Assembly (NCBI GenBank): GCA_007127495.1
Contig: SKZG01000211.1
Coordinates: 1-14,065, forward strand
Direction of reading: 5' to 3'
Source: Planctomycetales bacterium
GTDB lineage: Bacteria; Planctomycetota; Planctomycetia; Pirellulales; Thermoguttaceae
DNA length: 14,065 nucleotides
Shown here: piece after piece, positions 1,120 to 11,072 of the stretch
Position numbering within the stretch: the first letter of the stretch is position 1
How the letters are laid out: every line of letters starts with the position of its first letter
The notes under the pieces: model-generated
Seen by the model: the letters and a program-made list of their open reading frames with translations, nothing else
Told to the model about the DNA's origin: nothing
Databases searched by the model: none
Translations under genes and position numbers: made by a program

Positions 1120-1755
1120 ATGATCATGCGGCGCAACGCGATGACTACGCTGATTGTCGGAGTCTTGCTCGGCCTTGCCGGGTGTGGAAACTCATCGACA
1201 CCGTCCTCGACCTCGGCTCAAGGGATCGACCGGCAAGGCGCGGCGGAAGGCGGCGGGCCGACGGCCGATACGCCCCATGGCGCCGTAAATATCTTTCTCA
1301 GCGCGGTTTGCGCCGGCAACGACGAACAAGCCGCGGGCATGCTGACAGACCTCGCACGTCGCAAGACGACCGAAATGGACCTCGAAGTGGCTCCGGCCGG
1401 CAGCGACACAGCCCAGTTCCAAGTGGGCGAGGTGGAATATCTCGGCGAAGACGCCGCCCGAGTCGCGTGCGTTTGGAGCGATCTGGACGAGGCCGGCGGG
1501 CGGGCGGAAGAGCCCATCGTTTGGGCACTGCGCCGCGAGGCCGCCGGTTGGCGCATCGCCGGCATGGCGCCGACGGTCTTTCCCGGCGAACCGCCGCTGC
1601 TGTTGAACTTTGAGGATCCCGAAGAGATGCTCGAGAAACTCCAATGGGTACGCGAGGAGACGATGCGGCGCGCCCAGGCGGAGATGATGCAGAGCCAGCC
1701 GGGGGTTCCCCTCGAAGCCCAGCGCCAGGAAGACGCGGAAACCCCGATCCGCTAA
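1120..1755 (+). CDS. Planctomycete-type lipoprotein with a small alpha+beta domain
   Basis: The protein is 211 residues if started at the ATG at 1120, which follows AAAGGA; a second ATG at 1126 is also possible. An in-frame ATG at 1054 lacks a ribosome site and would put an implausible hydrophilic stretch before the signal peptide. The N-terminus has Arg-Arg, a hydrophobic core and a classic lipobox (L19-A20-G21-C22), so export and lipid attachment are expected. After a Ser/Thr/Gly-rich linker comes a compact domain beginning near HGAVNIFLSAV. Its layout (helix, then repeated strands, a conserved WR-IAGM strand) resembles NTF2/SnoaL-like lipoprotein domains, and I recall similar proteins with the same EMDLEVAP and LLLNFEDPE stretches in other planctomycetes. 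The tail (EMLEKLQW to the end) is charged and helical. Molecular function is unknown. Confidence 0.75.
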   Translation: MIMRRNAMTTLIVGVLLGLAGCGNSSTPSSTSAQGIDRQGAAEGGGPTADTPHGAVNIFLSAVCAGNDEQAAGMLTDLARRKTTEMDLEVAPAGSDTAQFQVGEVEYLGEDAARVACVWSDLDEAGGRAEEPIVWALRREAAGWRIAGMAPTVFPGEPPLLLNFEDPEEMLEKLQWVREETMRRAQAEMMQSQPGVPLEAQRQEDAETPIR

Positions 1756-1793
1756 GGCAAGCGGCAGAAACAATCTTACCGACCACCTTGTGG

Positions 1794-1839
1794 CCGAGTC
1801 TCGCCGAGACTCGGAATTCGGCGTCTCGGAGAGACGCCG
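1794..1839. repeat. Double-hairpin REP/BIME-like element
   Basis: Two perfect inverted repeats lie side by side: CCGAGTCTCG/CGAGACTCGG (1794-1803 and 1805-1814, 1-nt spacer) and CGGCGTCTC/GAGACGCCG (1819-1827 and 1831-1839, 3-nt loop), joined by AATT. The whole unit sits 38 bp after the lipoprotein stop codon. I recall similar paired hairpins as recurrent intergenic elements in planctomycete genomes, but cannot count copies here. No T-tract follows, so a simple intrinsic terminator is unlikely, though 3'-end protection of mRNA is possible. Confidence 0.65.
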
Positions 1840-2021
1840 CTACGGGATCGGCAGCCTATACAAGGGCGGAGCGCCGGGCACTATTCGGACAACAATGGAC
1901 AGCAAAAGCTCCCCAACACGAGGGGTTTGCCGCGTGTCTTGGGGTATCGTCGTTTCTGCAAGACAGTTCCGATTGGCCGGACAACGGAACAGTCCACCAC
2001 CCCACCTCCTTCCCGTAAATT

Positions 2022-2054
2022 GACGTAACTACTTCTGACATCTTGAGTTACGTC
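2022..2054. repeat. Perfect 9-bp inverted repeat, possible operator or hairpin
   Basis: GACGTAACT (2022-2030) and AGTTACGTC (2046-2054) are perfect inverted copies separated by 15 nt. The centre lies about 167 bp upstream of the -35 box at 2205, too far for a classical repressor site but compatible with an upstream activator site or an RNA hairpin. Confidence 0.5.
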
Positions 2055-2204
2055 CATTCTTCCAGGGGACAACTCTGCGCGATTCGAGCGAATGCGCGTA
2101 AAATTGGACCGACCGCGCACGGTAACCTATCCTTGGCAAAAGAGCGACGTATATCGCCCAAGCTGCGGATTTGCCCTGAGATGAAAATTTTACCATTCCC
2201 CCTG

Positions 2205-2232
2205 TTGACATCCAGTTGAACTATGCTAGCCT
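2205..2232 (+). promoter_or_regulatory. Sigma70-like promoter for the cysteine-rich protein gene
   Basis: A perfect -35 box TTGACA (2205-2210) is followed 16 bp later by TAGCCT (2227-2232), which keeps the key T, A and final T of a -10 box. A start near 2239 would give a leader of about 208 nt before the ATG at 2448. Confidence 0.5.
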
Positions 2233-2272
2233 ATTGTCTTAGGCCGTGCATTCGGTAGGAATGGAAAGCTCG

Positions 2273-2414
2273 GCCCGATTGGTTCAACAGGGCACCGATC
2301 GGGCGCGTTGTCCGTTGCCGCGTGCATGGCGAACGCATCGAAGAGGAACCCCGATTGCTGCCGTTGGGATCGGGGGGAGCGGAGTCACCGACGGCATGTG
2401 TTAGAGTTTCTAAC
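2273..2414 (+). promoter_or_regulatory. Structured 5' leader with three inverted repeats
   Basis: Three local hairpins are visible in the leader: GCCCGATTGG/CCGATCGGGC (2273-2282 and 2295-2304, one G-T pair), CCCCGAT/ATCGGGG (2349-2355 and 2369-2375) and GTTAGA/TCTAAC (2400-2405 and 2409-2414, 3-nt loop). No known riboswitch core was recognised. The last palindrome is only about 20 bp before the Shine-Dalgarno and could be a protein-binding site or an RNA hairpin. Confidence 0.4.
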
Positions 2415-2447
2415 GTTACGGTACCTGTTTCAATGGAGGTTTCAGAG

Positions 2448-3488
2448 ATGAAACGATTTTGCTTGATGAGTGCGGCGGTCCTGCTTGCCGCGCTCGGACT
2501 CGCCCTTCTGGGCATGGAGACGCAGGCTTCGGCCGACGAGGCATCGCCGGCTACCTGCGCACCGGTGGTTGTGGAGACTTGCGCTCCGGCCACCTGCGCT
2601 CCGAAGACCTGCCGCCCGGCACGCGTTCCCCGGACCTGTCGTCCGAAGCGTGTTCCGCGCACCTGTCGTCCGAAGACGTGCGCCCCGGCAACGGCCGCGC
2701 CCGTCACCTGCGCCCCGGTAGCGGTTGAACCCGTTACCTGCGCTCCGAAGACGTGCCGTCCGGCACGCGCTGCCCGGACTTGCCGTCCGGCACGCGTTCC
2801 GCGCCGTCCGAAGACTTGCGCCGCGGTCACCTGCGAGCCGAAGACGTGCCGTCCGCGCACCTGCCGTCCGAGGACGTGCGCCCCGGCAACGGCCGCGCCC
2901 GTCACGTGCGCTCCCGTAGCGGTTGAGGCCGTTACGTGCGCTCCGAAGACGTGCCGCCCGGCACGCGTTCCTCGGACTTGCCGTCCGAAGCGTGTTCCGC
3001 GCACCTGCCGTCCGAAGACGTGCGCCCCGGCAACGGCCGCGCCCGTCACCTGCGCCCCGGTAGCGGTTGAACCCGTTACCTGCGCTCCGAAGACGTGCCG
3101 CCCGGCACGCGTTCCCCGGACTTGCCGTCCGGCACGCGTTCCGCGCACCTGCCGTCCGAGGACCTGCGCCGCAGTCACCTGCGAGCCGAAGACGTGCCGC
3201 CCGCGGACTTGCCGTCCGGCCCGCGCGCCGCGCACTTGCCGCCCGAGGCGCGCTCCCCGGACTTGCCGTCCGGCCACCTGCGCTCCGGCTGCTTGCGCTC
3301 CGGCTGCGTGTGCGGCGGTTGTGGACGTCGTAACCGACGAGGCCCCGGCGACCGAAGCGGCGCCGGCTCCTGAGGCTCCGGCTGTGGAAGAGGCTCCGGA
3401 AGCGCCCGAGGCTCCGGAAGCCCCTGAGGCTCCGGAAGCTCCTGAGGCGCCTGAAGCCCCTGAGGCTCCGGCCCCGCCCGACGCTTAG
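2448..3488 (+). CDS. Secreted cysteine-rich TC-x-P repeat protein with EAP tail
   Basis: The start at 2448 is chosen because GGAGG (2435-2439) lies 8 nt upstream and it begins directly with a signal peptide (MKRF, long Ala/Leu core, likely cleavage after ASA near residue 31); an in-frame ATG at 2322 has neither. The 346-residue precursor then consists of repeats of TCAP, TCRP and TCEP joined by PARVP, PKRVP, PATAAP and PVAVEPV segments, with 36 cysteines by my count, many Arg and Pro, and almost no other hydrophobic residues. The last 45 residues are acidic, with nine consecutive EAP units, giving a basic Cys-rich body and an acidic tail. No enzyme domain is present. Inference: a disulfide-crosslinked or metal-binding structural protein of the envelope, which would fit a protein-rich planctomycete cell surface. 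A strong terminator follows. Its family is unknown to me. Confidence 0.85.
   Translation: MKRFCLMSAAVLLAALGLALLGMETQASADEASPATCAPVVVETCAPATCAPKTCRPARVPRTCRPKRVPRTCRPKTCAPATAAPVTCAPVAVEPVTCAPKTCRPARAARTCRPARVPRRPKTCAAVTCEPKTCRPRTCRPRTCAPATAAPVTCAPVAVEAVTCAPKTCRPARVPRTCRPKRVPRTCRPKTCAPATAAPVTCAPVAVEPVTCAPKTCRPARVPRTCRPARVPRTCRPRTCAAVTCEPKTCRPRTCRPARAPRTCRPRRAPRTCRPATCAPAACAPAACAAVVDVVTDEAPATEAAPAPEAPAVEEAPEAPEAPEAPEAPEAPEAPEAPEAPAPPDA
2667..3100 (+). repeat. Internal DNA duplications in the cysteine-rich gene
   Basis: A 92-bp stretch at 2667-2758 is repeated without change at 3009-3100, 342 bp later, and a diverged copy begins at about 2880. All offsets are multiples of three, so the frame is kept. 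The perfect identity suggests recent duplication or gene conversion inside the gene. Confidence 0.8.
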
Positions 3489-3606
3489 TTGAACCCTCGA
3501 CCGGATGTGGACGGGCGGCGCAGCGGGCTTCCAAAGTCGCTGTTGCAAGCCGTCTTCCGAGAGGAGCGATTGCCCTGTTGTCGCGACTCGCCCATCCGTG
3601 ATGATC

Positions 3607-3644
3607 CGAGCCGGGTCCATTCGTGGACCCGGCTCGCTTTTTTT
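3607..3644 (+). terminator. Strong intrinsic terminator after the cysteine-rich gene
   Basis: A perfect 13-bp stem (3607-3619 paired with 3624-3636, containing GAGCCGGGTCCA) closes a TTCG loop and is followed by C and seven T residues (3638-3644). It is oriented for + strand transcription and lies between convergent genes, about 120 nt after the + strand stop codon and just beyond the 3' end of the superoxide dismutase gene. Confidence 0.92.
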
Positions 3645-3687
3645 GGTCATTCAGACGATATACTCGCCGCGGCTTAAAGCTGCGTAG

Positions 3688-4404
3688 TCAGGCCTGGGCA
3701 AAGGTCTTCTCGACGAAGTCCCAGTTGACCACGTCCCAGAAGCCTTCGACGAACTTGGCCCGAAGGTTCCGGTAATCGACGTAGTAAGCGTGTTCCCACA
3801 CGTCGGCGGTCAAGAGAGGCTCCATCTGCTCCGTTAAGGGCACGTCGGCGTTACTTCCTTGTGTGATCGTCAGTTTCCCAGACGAGTCCTTCGCCAGCCA
3901 CGCCCATCCGGAGCCGAACAAGGTGACCGCGGCGTTAGAGAACTGCTGGCGGAACTCGTCGAACGAGCCAAAATCGCGCTGGATGGCCTTGGCGAGTTCG
4001 CCTCCGGGCTCGCCGCCTCCGCCGGGCACCATGCAGTTCCAGAAGAACGAATGGTTCCACGCCTGGGCCGCGTTGTTGAACACACCGCCCTCCGAATCGA
4101 TGACCACCTCGCGCAACGACATGGCCGCCTGCGGCGTTCCCTCAACCAACTTGTTCAGGTTGGTGAAGTAGCTTGCATGGTGCTTGTTGTAGTGAAAGTG
4201 CATCTGTTCCTCGGAAAGGAACGGCGCCAATGCGCCCAGTGCATAGGGAAGCTCGGGTTGTTGGAACGGCACGGGAGAATCTCCTTCAGGTTGGGATGGT
4301 GTGGCATTGGGTTTCGGATCGGAGTCGGCCGCGCCTGCGCAACCGAACACCGCTAGTCCTGCGCCCGTCGCAAGAGAACTAGCCAGGAACTGTCGACGTT
4401 TCAT
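3688..4404 (-). CDS. sodB: Exported Fe-type superoxide dismutase with Tat-like signal
   Basis: The enzyme converts superoxide to oxygen and hydrogen peroxide. The 238-residue protein has the four metal ligands of the Fe/Mn family at H71 (FHYNKHH), H118 (WNHSFFW), D201 and H205 (DVWEHAYY). The FNNAAQAWNH stretch with Q114 is the pattern of iron rather than manganese enzymes, since Mn enzymes usually carry their outer-sphere Gln later in the chain. The N-terminus differs from cytoplasmic SODs: it has RRQFL (residues 3-7), a hydrophobic stretch and GC at 21-22, then a Pro/Ser-rich linker to residue 50. That is a Tat-type signal, possibly with a lipobox (VFGC, atypical at position -2), so I infer an exported, perhaps lipid-anchored enzyme. 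GAGG lies 8 nt before the ATG. Transcription is probably monocistronic from the promoter at 4452-4480. Confidence 0.93.
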   Translation of the reverse strand: MKRRQFLASSLATGAGLAVFGCAGAADSDPKPNATPSQPEGDSPVPFQQPELPYALGALAPFLSEEQMHFHYNKHHASYFTNLNKLVEGTPQAAMSLREVVIDSEGGVFNNAAQAWNHSFFWNCMVPGGGGEPGGELAKAIQRDFGSFDEFRQQFSNAAVTLFGSGWAWLAKDSSGKLTITQGSNADVPLTEQMEPLLTADVWEHAYYVDYRNLRAKFVEGFWDVVNWDFVEKTFAQA

Positions 4405-4451
4405 CGTGATGCCCTCGCAGGAAAGAATCGGTCGAATACACAGACTTCGTT

Positions 4452-4480
4452 ATCTTACCGCGTCACCCCCGTGCAGGCAA
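4452..4480 (-). promoter_or_regulatory. Sigma70-like promoter of the superoxide dismutase gene
   Basis: On the - strand, TTGCCT (4475-4480) and TAAGAT (4452-4457) are separated by exactly 17 bp. A start near 4445 gives a short leader of about 40 nt to the ATG at 4404. Confidence 0.6.
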
Positions 4481-4568
4481 CCGAACGAACGCCGCGCAAC
4501 CCCGAGAAACCGCTGCACCAAGCAACGGAGAATACTGATTGGTGACTGCCCCACAAAGCTGCATCCTG

Positions 4569-4865: not shown

Positions 4866-4907
4866 GAATCTTTCTCCCATGCAAAGCGGCGGTTGGGCAG
4901 AAACCCT

Positions 4908-4982
4908 CAGCCGGGCAACGAACTCAGCCGGGCAACGAACTCAGCCGGGCAACGAACTCAGCCGGGCAACGAACTCAGCCGG
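4908..4982. repeat. 17-bp tandem repeat, four copies plus a partial fifth
   Basis: The unit CAGCCGGGCAACGAACT is repeated without change at 4908, 4925, 4942 and 4959, followed by CAGCCGG at 4976. It lies in the HU leader, 43 bp before the chosen GTG start. Copies are directly abutting with no spacers. Confidence 0.95.
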
Positions 4983-6355: not shown

Positions 6356-7069
6356 CTACCGTGGCGGGGCGATCCATGGCGGAGGGGCGTAACGCGGCGG
6401 CTTGTAGGGCTCGGTAGCGACGACCGGCGGGTTGTACGCCGGCCGGCCGTAGAAGATGCCCGACCGATCGTATCCCGGCCGGTCCAAAGCGGGTTTCTCG
6501 ATGGGCTTGCGCACGTAGTTCGGGCGGTCCAGGTACGTGGGGCGTTCGTACGAAGGCTTGGAAACCGAAGGCGGCACGTAATGGTCGATAAAGTACTTCG
6601 GCTTGTTGTCCAGCGGCGCAACGACCGGCGGCACGTGGTACATCGGCTTCCGCACCGGTTCCTGCGCCCGGCTGGGCTTCACGTACTGTGGCAGGCTGCT
6701 CCCATACCGGGGCCGGTTCCATTGCGGAAGATGTGTGTGCTGGCGGCTGTATGGGAGCCGGGTGCCGGTATCGAACAGCGGGTCCTGGCGCCTCGGGTAG
6801 CCGAAGATGTGGGCCGGCGGCTCGCGCGGCGATGGGCGGTCGGCCGCCTGGGCGGCGAACTCGGCCGGTTTCCGGGTCGCCGGCGGGCTGACTGCCTCCA
6901 GGGGCCGGTTCGTCGTGAACATCCATCCCCCGCCCGCGTACGATGTGGCGCCATGCCGTCCCTCCCCCAGCCCGTGCAACAGCAACACGACCGGGGCAAC
7001 GCAAAGCAACCATCGTACTACCAGGAACCACGCGGTCAGCGGCCTATTCGGTTCGCGTTGTATCAGCAT
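6356..7069 (-). CDS. Membrane-anchored Pro/Tyr-rich protein with [KR]PxY repeats
   Basis: The 237-residue protein has a positively charged start and one hydrophobic segment at about residues 11-35, likely an uncleaved anchor or signal. The rest is low complexity: rich in Pro, Tyr, Arg and Lys, with at least eight [KR]PxY units between about residues 119 and 212, then PPRYAPPPW and a Pro-rich end. No catalytic motif is visible and there is no cysteine outside the membrane segment. It starts 43 bp after fliM stops on the same strand, so cotranscription with fliM is possible, but the ribosome site is weak (GGAT). Inference: an extended, cell-surface or periplasm-spanning protein. The other frames are also open here because of base composition, so the assignment rests on the signal-like N-terminus and the ordered PxY repeats. 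Confidence 0.6.
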   Translation of the reverse strand: MLIQREPNRPLTAWFLVVRWLLCVAPVVLLLHGLGEGRHGATSYAGGGWMFTTNRPLEAVSPPATRKPAEFAAQAADRPSPREPPAHIFGYPRRQDPLFDTGTRLPYSRQHTHLPQWNRPRYGSSLPQYVKPSRAQEPVRKPMYHVPPVVAPLDNKPKYFIDHYVPPSVSKPSYERPTYLDRPNYVRKPIEKPALDRPGYDRSGIFYGRPAYNPPVVATEPYKPPRYAPPPWIAPPR

Positions 7070-9761: not shown

Positions 9762-10565
9762 CTACTTGGCCAGTTCGATGGCGGCTTCCGGCCGGAGGAC
9801 GCGGAAGGTGAACGACTCGGTCAGGAACAGCTCGACCTCGTGGCGATCGTGGGTGGCGAAGCCGACGGCCAAGTCCTGGCCCACCGTCAGCTCGAAATCG
9901 CCGCCGGCGGTGGAAAGGAGCACCCCACCTTGTAGTGCCTGGCTGGCGAGAATTTGCCCGCCAAGCATGTCAAGGATGATCCGCCCCGGAGGGAAGCCGC
10001 CCTTGCCGGCCTGGATGAGCCCGGCGTACGCGTCGACTCCGAGAACCAGCGCGTACGGGCCCGGAACTCCGGAAAGGCGAAGTTCCTTCAGCCCTTGCGC
10101 AACGGCTTGCGGGTACATTTCGGGGTTGTCCGGCAGCTTGACGGGTGCGTGAGCGGCCTCCTGCACAATGCCTTGAATGCCACCGGGCCCGAAGCCGGTA
10201 TAGACCGCGGCGTCTTCAAAAAGGGCGACTCGCTGCGCGGCCTCTTCCAGCGGCGCCAAGTCCAAGTCTTTGCAACCTCGAGAAGCGTTGTCCAATTCAA
10301 GCTGCGGGAGCGAGACCGGCACACGAACCTCCACCAAGGGAAGTACGGTGCGAATGCCCCAGGGCACTTTCTCGTCACTGCCGCCCTCTGGGATGTCAAT
10401 GCGCCCTAAATTGACCGCGGCATAATGCCAGCCGTGCGGGCCGGAGAAATCCACAAGAGTCCGTGCGGTAAGCTGCGCCTTCAAGATCGTGGCGGCTGCC
10501 GCATCGACTTCCTCCCACGCTTCGGCTGTGAGAGGGGCAAGGGAACGCTTAAGCAAATCGACCAT
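9762..10565 (-). CDS. enc: Encapsulin shell protein (family 1, HK97 fold)
   Basis: Encapsulin subunits assemble into an icosahedral protein shell in the cytoplasm that encloses cargo enzymes. At 267 residues the protein has the usual family 1 length (about 265). The N-terminal helix LLKRSLAPLTAEAWEEVDA, then ARTLVDFSGPHGW (residues 34-46), is highly typical; it forms part of the inner wall and the cargo-docking cleft. GRIDIPEGGSDEKVPWGIR (residues 54-72) matches the E-loop, and the middle contains the A-domain with the GFGPGGIQGI and YALVLGVDAY segments. The ending ESFTFRVLRPEAAIELAK is the usual C-terminus. AAGGAAG lies 6 nt before the ATG. It is the second gene after EncFtn, the arrangement known for encapsulated ferritin systems such as in Rhodospirillum rubrum. 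Small T=1 shells of 60 subunits are normal for subunits of this length; that is knowledge of the family, not seen here. Confidence 0.96.
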   Translation of the reverse strand: MVDLLKRSLAPLTAEAWEEVDAAAATILKAQLTARTLVDFSGPHGWHYAAVNLGRIDIPEGGSDEKVPWGIRTVLPLVEVRVPVSLPQLELDNASRGCKDLDLAPLEEAAQRVALFEDAAVYTGFGPGGIQGIVQEAAHAPVKLPDNPEMYPQAVAQGLKELRLSGVPGPYALVLGVDAYAGLIQAGKGGFPPGRIILDMLGGQILASQALQGGVLLSTAGGDFELTVGQDLAVGFATHDRHEVELFLTESFTFRVLRPEAAIELAK

Positions 10566-10639
10566 GGGATACTTCCTTTTTAATGAATGGGTCTACTGAA
10601 TTGTGTGCGCGAGGGCACTTAGGGCAAGCACGCAACCAC

Positions 10640-10683
10640 GGCGGCGCAGGCCTTGCGAACGGCTACGGCCCAGCCGCGCCGCC
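10640..10683 (-). promoter_or_regulatory. Hairpin between EncFtn and encapsulin genes
   Basis: GGCGGCGC (10640-10647) and GCGCCGCC (10676-10683) are perfect inverted copies around 28 nt that contain a further GGCT/AGCC pairing. It begins 20 nt after the EncFtn stop codon, has no T-tract, and lies about 75 nt before the encapsulin start. It may act as an RNA-stability or processing element between cargo and shell cistrons. Confidence 0.45.
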
Positions 10684-10703
10684 GAGCGCGCGGAACCCCT
10701 TCG

Positions 10704-11072
10704 TCAACGCACCTGTTTCGAAAACTTCCCGATGCCCATCCCCGCAGCCGGCTTCGTTTCGCCCTCACCGCCGCCGGTCGCCTCTTCTTCCAGGGCATGG
10801 ATCGGACCGGAGGTGAACAGGTACGTGCGCAACTGCTCGTCGAACTTGGGAATCTGTCGCCGCAGCCATTCAAGGCCCATGGCGGCATGTTCGATCTCTT
10901 CGTCGCGGTTGTGCAGCAGGATGGCCTTGAGCTGTTCATCGGCGCATACCTCCGCCCGCTGGTGATACCAAGCCACCGCCTCCAGTTCCTCAACGGTGGA
11001 ACTGAGCGCGCGGTGGATGTCGCGAGCCTCGGCTGACAATTCGGCTGGGGGTTCATGATAGGCAAGTGCCAT
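10704..11072 (-). CDS. encFtn: Encapsulated ferritin-like protein (EncFtn)
   Basis: EncFtn oxidises Fe(II) to Fe(III) at a ferroxidase centre formed between two subunits and delivers iron for mineralisation inside the encapsulin shell; it cannot store iron alone. The 122-residue protein has one helix pair: EELEAVAWYHQR (28-39) and HNRDEEIEHAAMGLEWLRR (54-72), then YLFTSGP. By alignment from memory with the R. rubrum protein, the ferroxidase residues correspond to E29, E59 and H62, with entry-site E28 and E31 and gate W35 all present. After a Gly/Glu linker the C-terminus reads AGMGIGKFSKQVR, the position and GIG core of the cargo-loading peptide that docks on the shell interior. GGGAG lies 11 nt before the ATG, and a promoter is visible at 11150-11177. 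Encapsulin follows 138 bp downstream. Confidence 0.95.
   Translation of the reverse strand: MALAYHEPPAELSAEARDIHRALSSTVEELEAVAWYHQRAEVCADEQLKAILLHNRDEEIEHAAMGLEWLRRQIPKFDEQLRTYLFTSGPIHALEEEATGGGEGETKPAAGMGIGKFSKQVR

Follow-up and report, generated by a model that had tools for sequence, protein, structure and literature searches.

The DNA analysed here, a stretch of 14,065 nucleotides from a Planctomycetales genome of the Thermoguttaceae (G000; 3.17 Mb in 592 contigs, 84% complete), is referred to as the window. The gene of main interest encodes a cysteine-rich protein, predicted to be exported, which is preceded by a promoter and a structured leader RNA and followed by an intrinsic terminator (Table 1). 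A lipoprotein gene lies upstream on the same strand and a superoxide dismutase (SOD) gene downstream in the opposite orientation. Elsewhere in the window, an encapsulated-ferritin-like gene lies beside a minus-strand ORF (9762-11072) which we take to be an encapsulin-shell-like gene.

Table 1. Positions of the features found in the window
Feature	Position	Strand	Basis or remark
Lipoprotein with NTF2-like fold	1126-1755	+	Synteny, predicted structure
Promoter: -35 TTGACA (2205-2210), 16-nt spacer, extended -10 TGC-TAGCCT (2224-2232)	2205-2232	+	Cross-leader comparison
Structured leader RNA, ~210 nt	2239-2447	+	Conserved across genera, covariation; start placed from the -10 box
P1, 5' strand GCCGTGC	2243-2249	+	Partner GCATGGC at 2324-2330; permutation test
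Conserved loop AACAGGG of hairpin arm	2286-2292	+	Possible pairing with CCTGTT (2424-2429), speculative and not universal
P4 helix, CCCCGAT (2349-2355) / ATCGGGG (2369-2375)	2349-2375	+	Covariation
P5 pseudoknot helix, GCCGTT (2360-2365) / GACGGC (2390-2395)	2360-2395	+	Pairing; interleaved with P4
P6, weaker helix, 2404-2409 / 2438-2443	2404-2443	+	The window sequence can form five of the six pairs; overlaps the Shine-Dalgarno side
3' block ACGTTACGGTACCTGTT and Shine-Dalgarno GGAGG (2435-2439)	2413-2439	+	Conservation
Cys-rich TC-x-P repeat protein, predicted to be exported	2448-3488	+	ORF, 346 aa
Signal peptide MKRFCLMSAAVLLAALGLALLGMETQASA	2448-2534	+	Hydrophobic; cleavage site judged by eye
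Acidic Ala/Pro/Glu tail without Cys	3318-3485	+	Composition; relatives have Ala/Pro-rich tails
Intrinsic terminator, 13-bp perfect stem (3607-3636) followed by T7	3607-3643	+	Terminator scan
Fe/Mn superoxide dismutase	3688-4404	-	Convergent with the Cys-rich gene; weak TAT-signal match below cut-off
Perfect 17-bp tandem repeat, 4.5 copies	4906-4982		Just upstream of an HU-type gene
Exported-looking Pro/Tyr/Arg-rich ORF	6356-7069	-	Extensin_1 similarity weak, far below cut-off
Encapsulated-ferritin-like gene			Beside the ORF 9762-11072; Pfam EncFtn-like, 3.7e-40

The window protein contains 37 cysteines, one at residue 5 and 36 after the signal peptide, and threonine precedes 34 of the 37. Their contexts are TCRP (17), TCAP (13), TCEP and TCAA (two each), and ACAP, ACAA and FCLM (one each), with mature Cys-to-Cys spacings of 5, 8, 9, 10 or 12. 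The core (residues 32-290) is strongly basic, with 54 Lys and Arg versus 6 Asp and Glu, and the tail (residues 291-346) contains 16 Asp and Glu and no Lys or Arg. The whole protein has 11 EAP units, nine of them consecutive. The preliminary description of a signal peptide, dozens of cysteines in a basic background (mostly T-C-[ARE]-P) and an acidic C-terminal run of nine EAP units thus agrees with the protein, and export is supported by a hydrophobic N-terminus that is kept across relatives. The gene also contains an internal DNA repeat with a period of 342 nt, of which two copies, compared up to a register-shifting indel, differ by six synonymous and two non-synonymous codons.

A protein search was carried out in 60 genomes, G000 and 59 relatives. 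Homologues with the TC-x-P repeat, which the preliminary description had proposed to look for, were found in 25 of the 37 genomes of the same family and in none of the 23 from other families of the order; among the relatives, 23 of 58 genera had matches. A separate homology search with the window protein (P0001) gave at least five matches among the 7995 candidates scored, and G000 itself encodes a second TCxP protein on contig C177. The relatives have in common a signal peptide, TC-x-P-type pentapeptides and, mostly, a Cys-free Ala/Pro-rich tail. In a set of 56 unique complete proteins, 54 start with M[NK]R and none matches a simple lipobox pattern.

Outside the family of the window, the protein downstream of the leader typically starts with MNRALVFGIAIFFAVVGIALLGG..AGHGC, followed by HGC/GC repeats, CCAPEP repeats or mixtures of these, and an Ala/Pro tail ends these order-wide relatives, often as FRxVxFRR. 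A profile built from 20 such proteins (A4) matched 105 of 196 genomes of the order, including nine of the window's family, in which all nine matches lie directly behind an RNA match. No match in G000 reached the threshold of this profile, so that the window protein is tied to the order-wide family through these nine relatives, the leader and synteny. In a draw across the phylum the profile matched one of 199 genomes, and that one belongs to the order. Sixteen records were retrieved with an exact pattern, all but one planctomycete, 10 of them Pirellulales, Pirellulaceae or Thermoguttaceae; the order spanned by the wider family is apparently Pirellulales. One member (P0127) is annotated as a hypothetical protein of Blastopirellula retiformator, whose leader is too diverged for the RNA model. 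RNA and protein are both present in four single-contig genomes (G119, G134, G177 and G273).

Cysteine makes up a median of 17.3% (range 8.8-27%) of the mature part of the 56 proteins. Its count is odd in 30 and even in 26, about equal numbers, indicating that complete intramolecular Cys pairing is not the rule. In the TCxP form (21 proteins) a Cys spacing of 5 dominates, the median number of CxxC motifs is 0 and 16 proteins have no His, versus medians of six His and three CxxC in the 35 proteins of other families. The idea that the CHGCH stretches mark a c-type cytochrome was rejected, as CxxCH occurs in 0 of the 21 TCxP proteins and 11 of the 35 others. As judged by sequence comparison, the order-wide family has the TC-x-P repeat as one of its local versions; what it keeps is Cys abundance, not the motif, and its mature part has been rewritten.

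The family was not recognised in Pfam scans of P0001 and eight relatives, save for borderline keratin matches, nor in NCBIfam scans of six proteins, one of which has a fused TIGR03000 domain. The preliminary description compared the protein to keratin-associated proteins, and the likeness is borne out for composition: both share Cys/Pro pentapeptide-like repeats, but the window protein is bacterial and has a signal peptide. Pfam Keratin_B2_2 scores 27.0 bits on P0001 against a cut-off of 27 with no passing stretch, and PMG falls below its cut-off; P0038 scores 25.8 bits with one stretch, and the other seven of eight proteins scanned gave no match. Since no single stretch passes, the match is read as composition, not homology, and in our reading the likeness is probably convergent. 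Two weak collagen-like matches, both to the tail, were obtained in a sequence search of the PDB. The chlamydial envelope proteins OmcA and OmcB, from the same superphylum as the planctomycetes, are also Cys-rich and form a disulfide network; no chlamydial Cys-rich outer-membrane family was matched in the Pfam (P0001 and eight relatives) or NCBIfam (six proteins) scans. Cys-rich YTV proteins have been found in planctomycete wall preparations, according to PMC8567305 (citing Hieu 2008; Mahajan 2020a). These are likewise planctomycete and Cys-rich, but YTV occurs in none of the 56 proteins of the present family, and 43 of the 56 have no Tyr. No description of this Cys-rich family or of its leader RNA was found among the open-access papers listed.

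The preliminary description also noted a long structured leader, and this claim has become the strongest part of the finding; what it lacked is that, by comparison of the upstream regions, the leader RNA is itself conserved, shows covariation and goes together with this gene. A covariance model of its 3' module (R1) matched 33 of the 60 genomes, 24 of 37 inside the family and nine of 23 outside. A broader model (R2) matched 61 of 296 genomes of the order and two of 294 in a phylum-wide draw, both within the order. Each matched genome had a single match (33/33 for R1, 61/61 for R2), a count that could miss weak second copies because scoring was confined to the top 65 or 13 candidates in each genome. 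An ORF for a predicted exported Cys-rich protein lies directly 3' of the leader in 64 of 66 loci inspected, which contain a few near-identical places (e.g. L086/L102 and L072/L098); the two misses, L088 (G031) and L112 (G074), are weak RNA matches without an ORF. Conversely, a local R2 search in 20 protein loci without a listed RNA match gave eight weaker matches, all on the gene strand and directly upstream, with E-values of ~1e-5 for L173 and L174 and 0.002-0.07 for L159, L163, L167, L168, L169 and L172; in the remaining 12, nothing matched up to an E-value of 1. Judged by eye, a related pseudoknot is present in L170, and the leaders of Blastopirellula type (L155 and L161) appear rearranged.

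The blocks of the leader follow in order: promoter, arm with the AACAGGG loop, P4/P5, the 3' block ACGCUACGGUACCUGUU, and then GGAGG. In the consensus, P4 (CUCCCC/GGGGAG) is interleaved with P5 (GCCGUC/GACGGC) to form an H-type pseudoknot. GGAGG is present in 68 of 68 leaders, GGTAC in 56 and ACCTGTT in 34. A kissing interaction between AACAGG and CCTGTT is plausible in many leaders and not universal, and a possible anti-Shine-Dalgarno CTCC in the 5' strand of P4 occurs in just 29 of 68. The short motif ACGTTACGGTAC has one exact and six one-mismatch sites in the window's genome versus 28 sites for a reversed control, and is therefore uninformative alone.

Of an initial 24 leaders, 17 were aligned and 15 taken into A1/A2, with L009 and L028 dropped as divergent; the other seven represent different leader classes. 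Sets A3 and A5 hold solely loci picked through model matches. The 15 leaders, aligned with MAFFT, had 89.6% of cells paired, with a covariation of 0.321 versus 0.253 in shuffled alignments and slid controls of 45-60% paired. The alignments of 35 and 67 distinct leaders, fitted to a model with P4 and P6 and without P5, gave 91.7% paired cells (covariation 0.372 versus 0.233) and 90.6% (0.394 versus 0.214; slid controls 38-61%), respectively. None of 500 shuffles equalled the score of the 67 leaders; such counts are not probabilities, as the structure had been derived from these very sequences and the shuffling disregards how the leaders are related. Within the 67 leaders, all six pairs of P4 changed on both sides and 92.5% of its cells were paired, while P5 was 99.3% paired, mostly through conservation, with two of six pairs changed on both sides, and P6 was 79.9% paired. 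For P1, pairing of each strand with its own partner beat re-dealt partners, a result equalled in 0 of 5000 permutations with 56 leaders (62 before removal of six near-identical ones, with L110 and L111 left out for a misplaced promoter or no match) and in 75 and 45 of 5000 in two subsets. Chance structure is ruled out by the covariation in 15, 35 and 67 leaders. An attenuator with a Cys-codon uORF was also rejected: by eye, no uORF recurring in position and Cys count was seen in the five leaders examined.

The promoter is shared as well: 62 of 64 leaders have TTGAC and TGnTAnnnT at a constant distance of 16 nt; of the two exceptions, L111 had no match and L110 was placed wrongly by the automatic assignment. 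A generic sigma-70 scan did not list the window promoter, whose -10 box matches TATAAT at three of six positions. Behind the gene, the perfect 13-bp stem and seven T at 3607 bear out the strong terminator announced earlier; the region 1750-4500 has three terminator-like sites, not above the shuffle mean of 3.2, and the other two have 5-bp stems.

Rfam searches at gathering score gave no match in the window; with the limit relaxed to an E-value of 1, 12 loci yielded seven weak matches, none covering the leader. The best reading of these comparisons is that the leader, which matches no family in Rfam 15, is a new structured cis-regulatory RNA for one exported Cys-rich protein. SAM-II and preQ1 are translation-controlling riboswitches with H-type pseudoknots. 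The present leader resembles this type in that a pseudoknot precedes the Shine-Dalgarno, islands are conserved and helices covary, but it has no Rfam match and only one gene family stands behind it in the inspected loci. A prior candidate is the Rhodopirellula-1 motif, described in Table 1 of PMC2864571 as a probable cis-regulatory motif in Planctomycetes; the table lists it for Proteobacteria as well, rates it ambiguous as RNA and gives no Rfam accession.

The gene upstream of the leader is also conserved across the order. Among 46 loci entered, without the window, two were too short to tell, and a homologue of the lipoprotein lies upstream on the same strand in 43 of the 44 testable ones, being absent in L047. 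The structural model of the lipoprotein (pLDDT 84.5) matches NTF2-like folds such as the CaMKII hub with E ~1e-4 and a query TM of ~0.3-0.37. Pfam similarities are weak (DUF4878 in five and DUF4440 in four of 21 members, best E ~0.007), with none above cut-off for the window's copy. Further upstream, the ORF at 26-1006 recurs in loci from 10 genomes. A unit linked to SOD was rejected, as SOD lies downstream of the Cys-rich gene in four other genomes only, in flanks of mostly 1.5 kb. As a separate observation, the minus-strand ORF at 6356-7069 could encode a further structural protein.

RNA, signal peptide and upstream lipoprotein gene are thus kept, and the mature Cys-rich part is rewritten. 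With moderate confidence, we propose that the structured leader RNA sets the synthesis of an exported Cys-rich protein of an order-wide family, which would be a component of the envelope or matrix. The leader would control translation: its pseudoknot would stabilise either an open or a closed form of the region around the Shine-Dalgarno (P6), and a costly Cys-rich product would thereby be made at the right level or time. After secretion by Sec and removal of the signal peptide, this product would, by virtue of its numerous Cys and basic residues, serve in bulk to crosslink or fill the cell envelope or a surface matrix; the crosslinking and regulation steps are those that we infer. Such a bulk role would fit the rewriting of the repeat with its Cys content (median 17%) kept. 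Planctomycete walls have been described as proteinaceous (PMC8567305), and a protein sacculus with disulfide bonds is mentioned in PMC2754498. The Mur-ligase middle domain is present in 60 of 60 genomes, with four matches in G000, which suggests that peptidoglycan precursors are made, and is no proof because two archaeal controls match too. The crosslinked envelope component put forward in the preliminary description stays plausible as far as the sequences go, with the rarity of the two oxidative enzymes searched for as its counterpoint: VKOR exceeded the cut-off in 12 of 60 genomes and DsbA in seven of 60, each in two of the 37 of the window's family and in none of the contigs of G000 (84% complete).

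A main rival, also raised in the preliminary description as a metal scavenger, is an extracytoplasmic metal or thiol buffer of metallothionein-like kind, in which the leader would be a metal- or thiol-sensing riboswitch. The abundance of Cys (8.8-27% of the mature part), the rarity of DsbA and VKOR within the family, and the SOD and encapsulated-ferritin-like genes in the same window are all consistent with it, as are the His/Gly/Cys forms of other families, which look metal-binding (median six His and three CxxC, n = 35). Against this, the CxxC clusters of metallothionein-like proteins are missing from the TCxP form (median 0, n = 21), 16 of whose 21 proteins have no His, and Cys abundance is therefore favoured over a fixed metal site; moreover, the core is strongly basic, the protein is predicted to be exported and not cytoplasmic, SOD adjoins the gene in just four other genomes with mostly 1.5-kb flanks, and no Rfam riboswitch is matched. 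We hold the buffer to be unlikely. Genes for S-layer or outer-membrane proteins have leaders serving as mRNA stabilisers or enhancers, and the present leader could likewise be a stabiliser or translation enhancer for the mRNA of a very abundant surface protein and not a sensor. This is compatible with the envelope reading, and the conserved promoter, GGAGG in 68 of 68 leaders, the single gene family in the inspected loci and the strong terminator all suit it. However, a covarying pseudoknot with conserved islands exceeds the needs of a stabilising hairpin, and P6 overlaps the Shine-Dalgarno, which leaves the stabiliser a serious possibility that falls short of an even one.

Two further readings concern the protein itself. 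The basic core (K+R 54) and the LLxRLKxR-type segments in 12 of 56 proteins would suit a precursor of cationic antimicrobial or competition peptides, with basic Cys-rich segments released outside the cell, but the gene is conserved throughout the order together with its neighbour and its leader, which makes this very improbable. The preliminary description had also considered a non-coding low-complexity stretch, and the extreme composition and repeats could indeed point to a spurious ORF. This is ruled out by the homologues, in which start, signal peptide and Cys content are kept across families despite diverged DNA, and by the leader, RBS and promoter conserved ahead of the ATG; going by these comparisons, an artefact is excluded for 2448-3488 and its likelihood is practically nil.

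A structured leader without Rfam match is here paired with a protein family unrecognised by Pfam and NCBIfam, both confined in our surveys to one planctomycete order, and the UTR and signal peptide appear far better conserved than the mature protein that they serve. Two questions become testable: which builders of the envelope exist besides peptidoglycan and YTV proteins, and how they are regulated. As a tentative and somewhat doubtful extension, the leader may define a regulatory RNA class of its own, perhaps a riboswitch that responds to a thiol, a metal or an envelope signal, kept for the whole age of the order solely to control one exported Cys polymer, whose sequence could be rewritten while it stayed full of Cys; this polymer could be one of the components that underlie older descriptions of planctomycete walls as rich in protein.

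Other upstream regions and protein variants were seen among the paralogues. The TCxP-type paralogues at L015, L019 and L024 are preceded by another leader, in which a promoter-like stretch (TGCTATA or GACTATA) lies much nearer to the ATG. Those at L004, L031 and L032 (starting with MNRR or MNHR) have yet another kind of upstream region in common, and one gene of this kind, with CCPRPRLLDKLAARRACRKARRCAP repeats, is found on contig C177 of G000. In the L024 paralogue the repeat Cys are mostly swapped for Ala (TAxPV repeats), so that the pentapeptide frame persists without Cys, and in P0039 a C-terminal TIGR03000 planctomycete domain is fused onto the Cys-rich part. The L085 record, labelled Candidatus Nealsonbacteria, contains a planctomycete leader and gene, and is probably a mislabelled bin.
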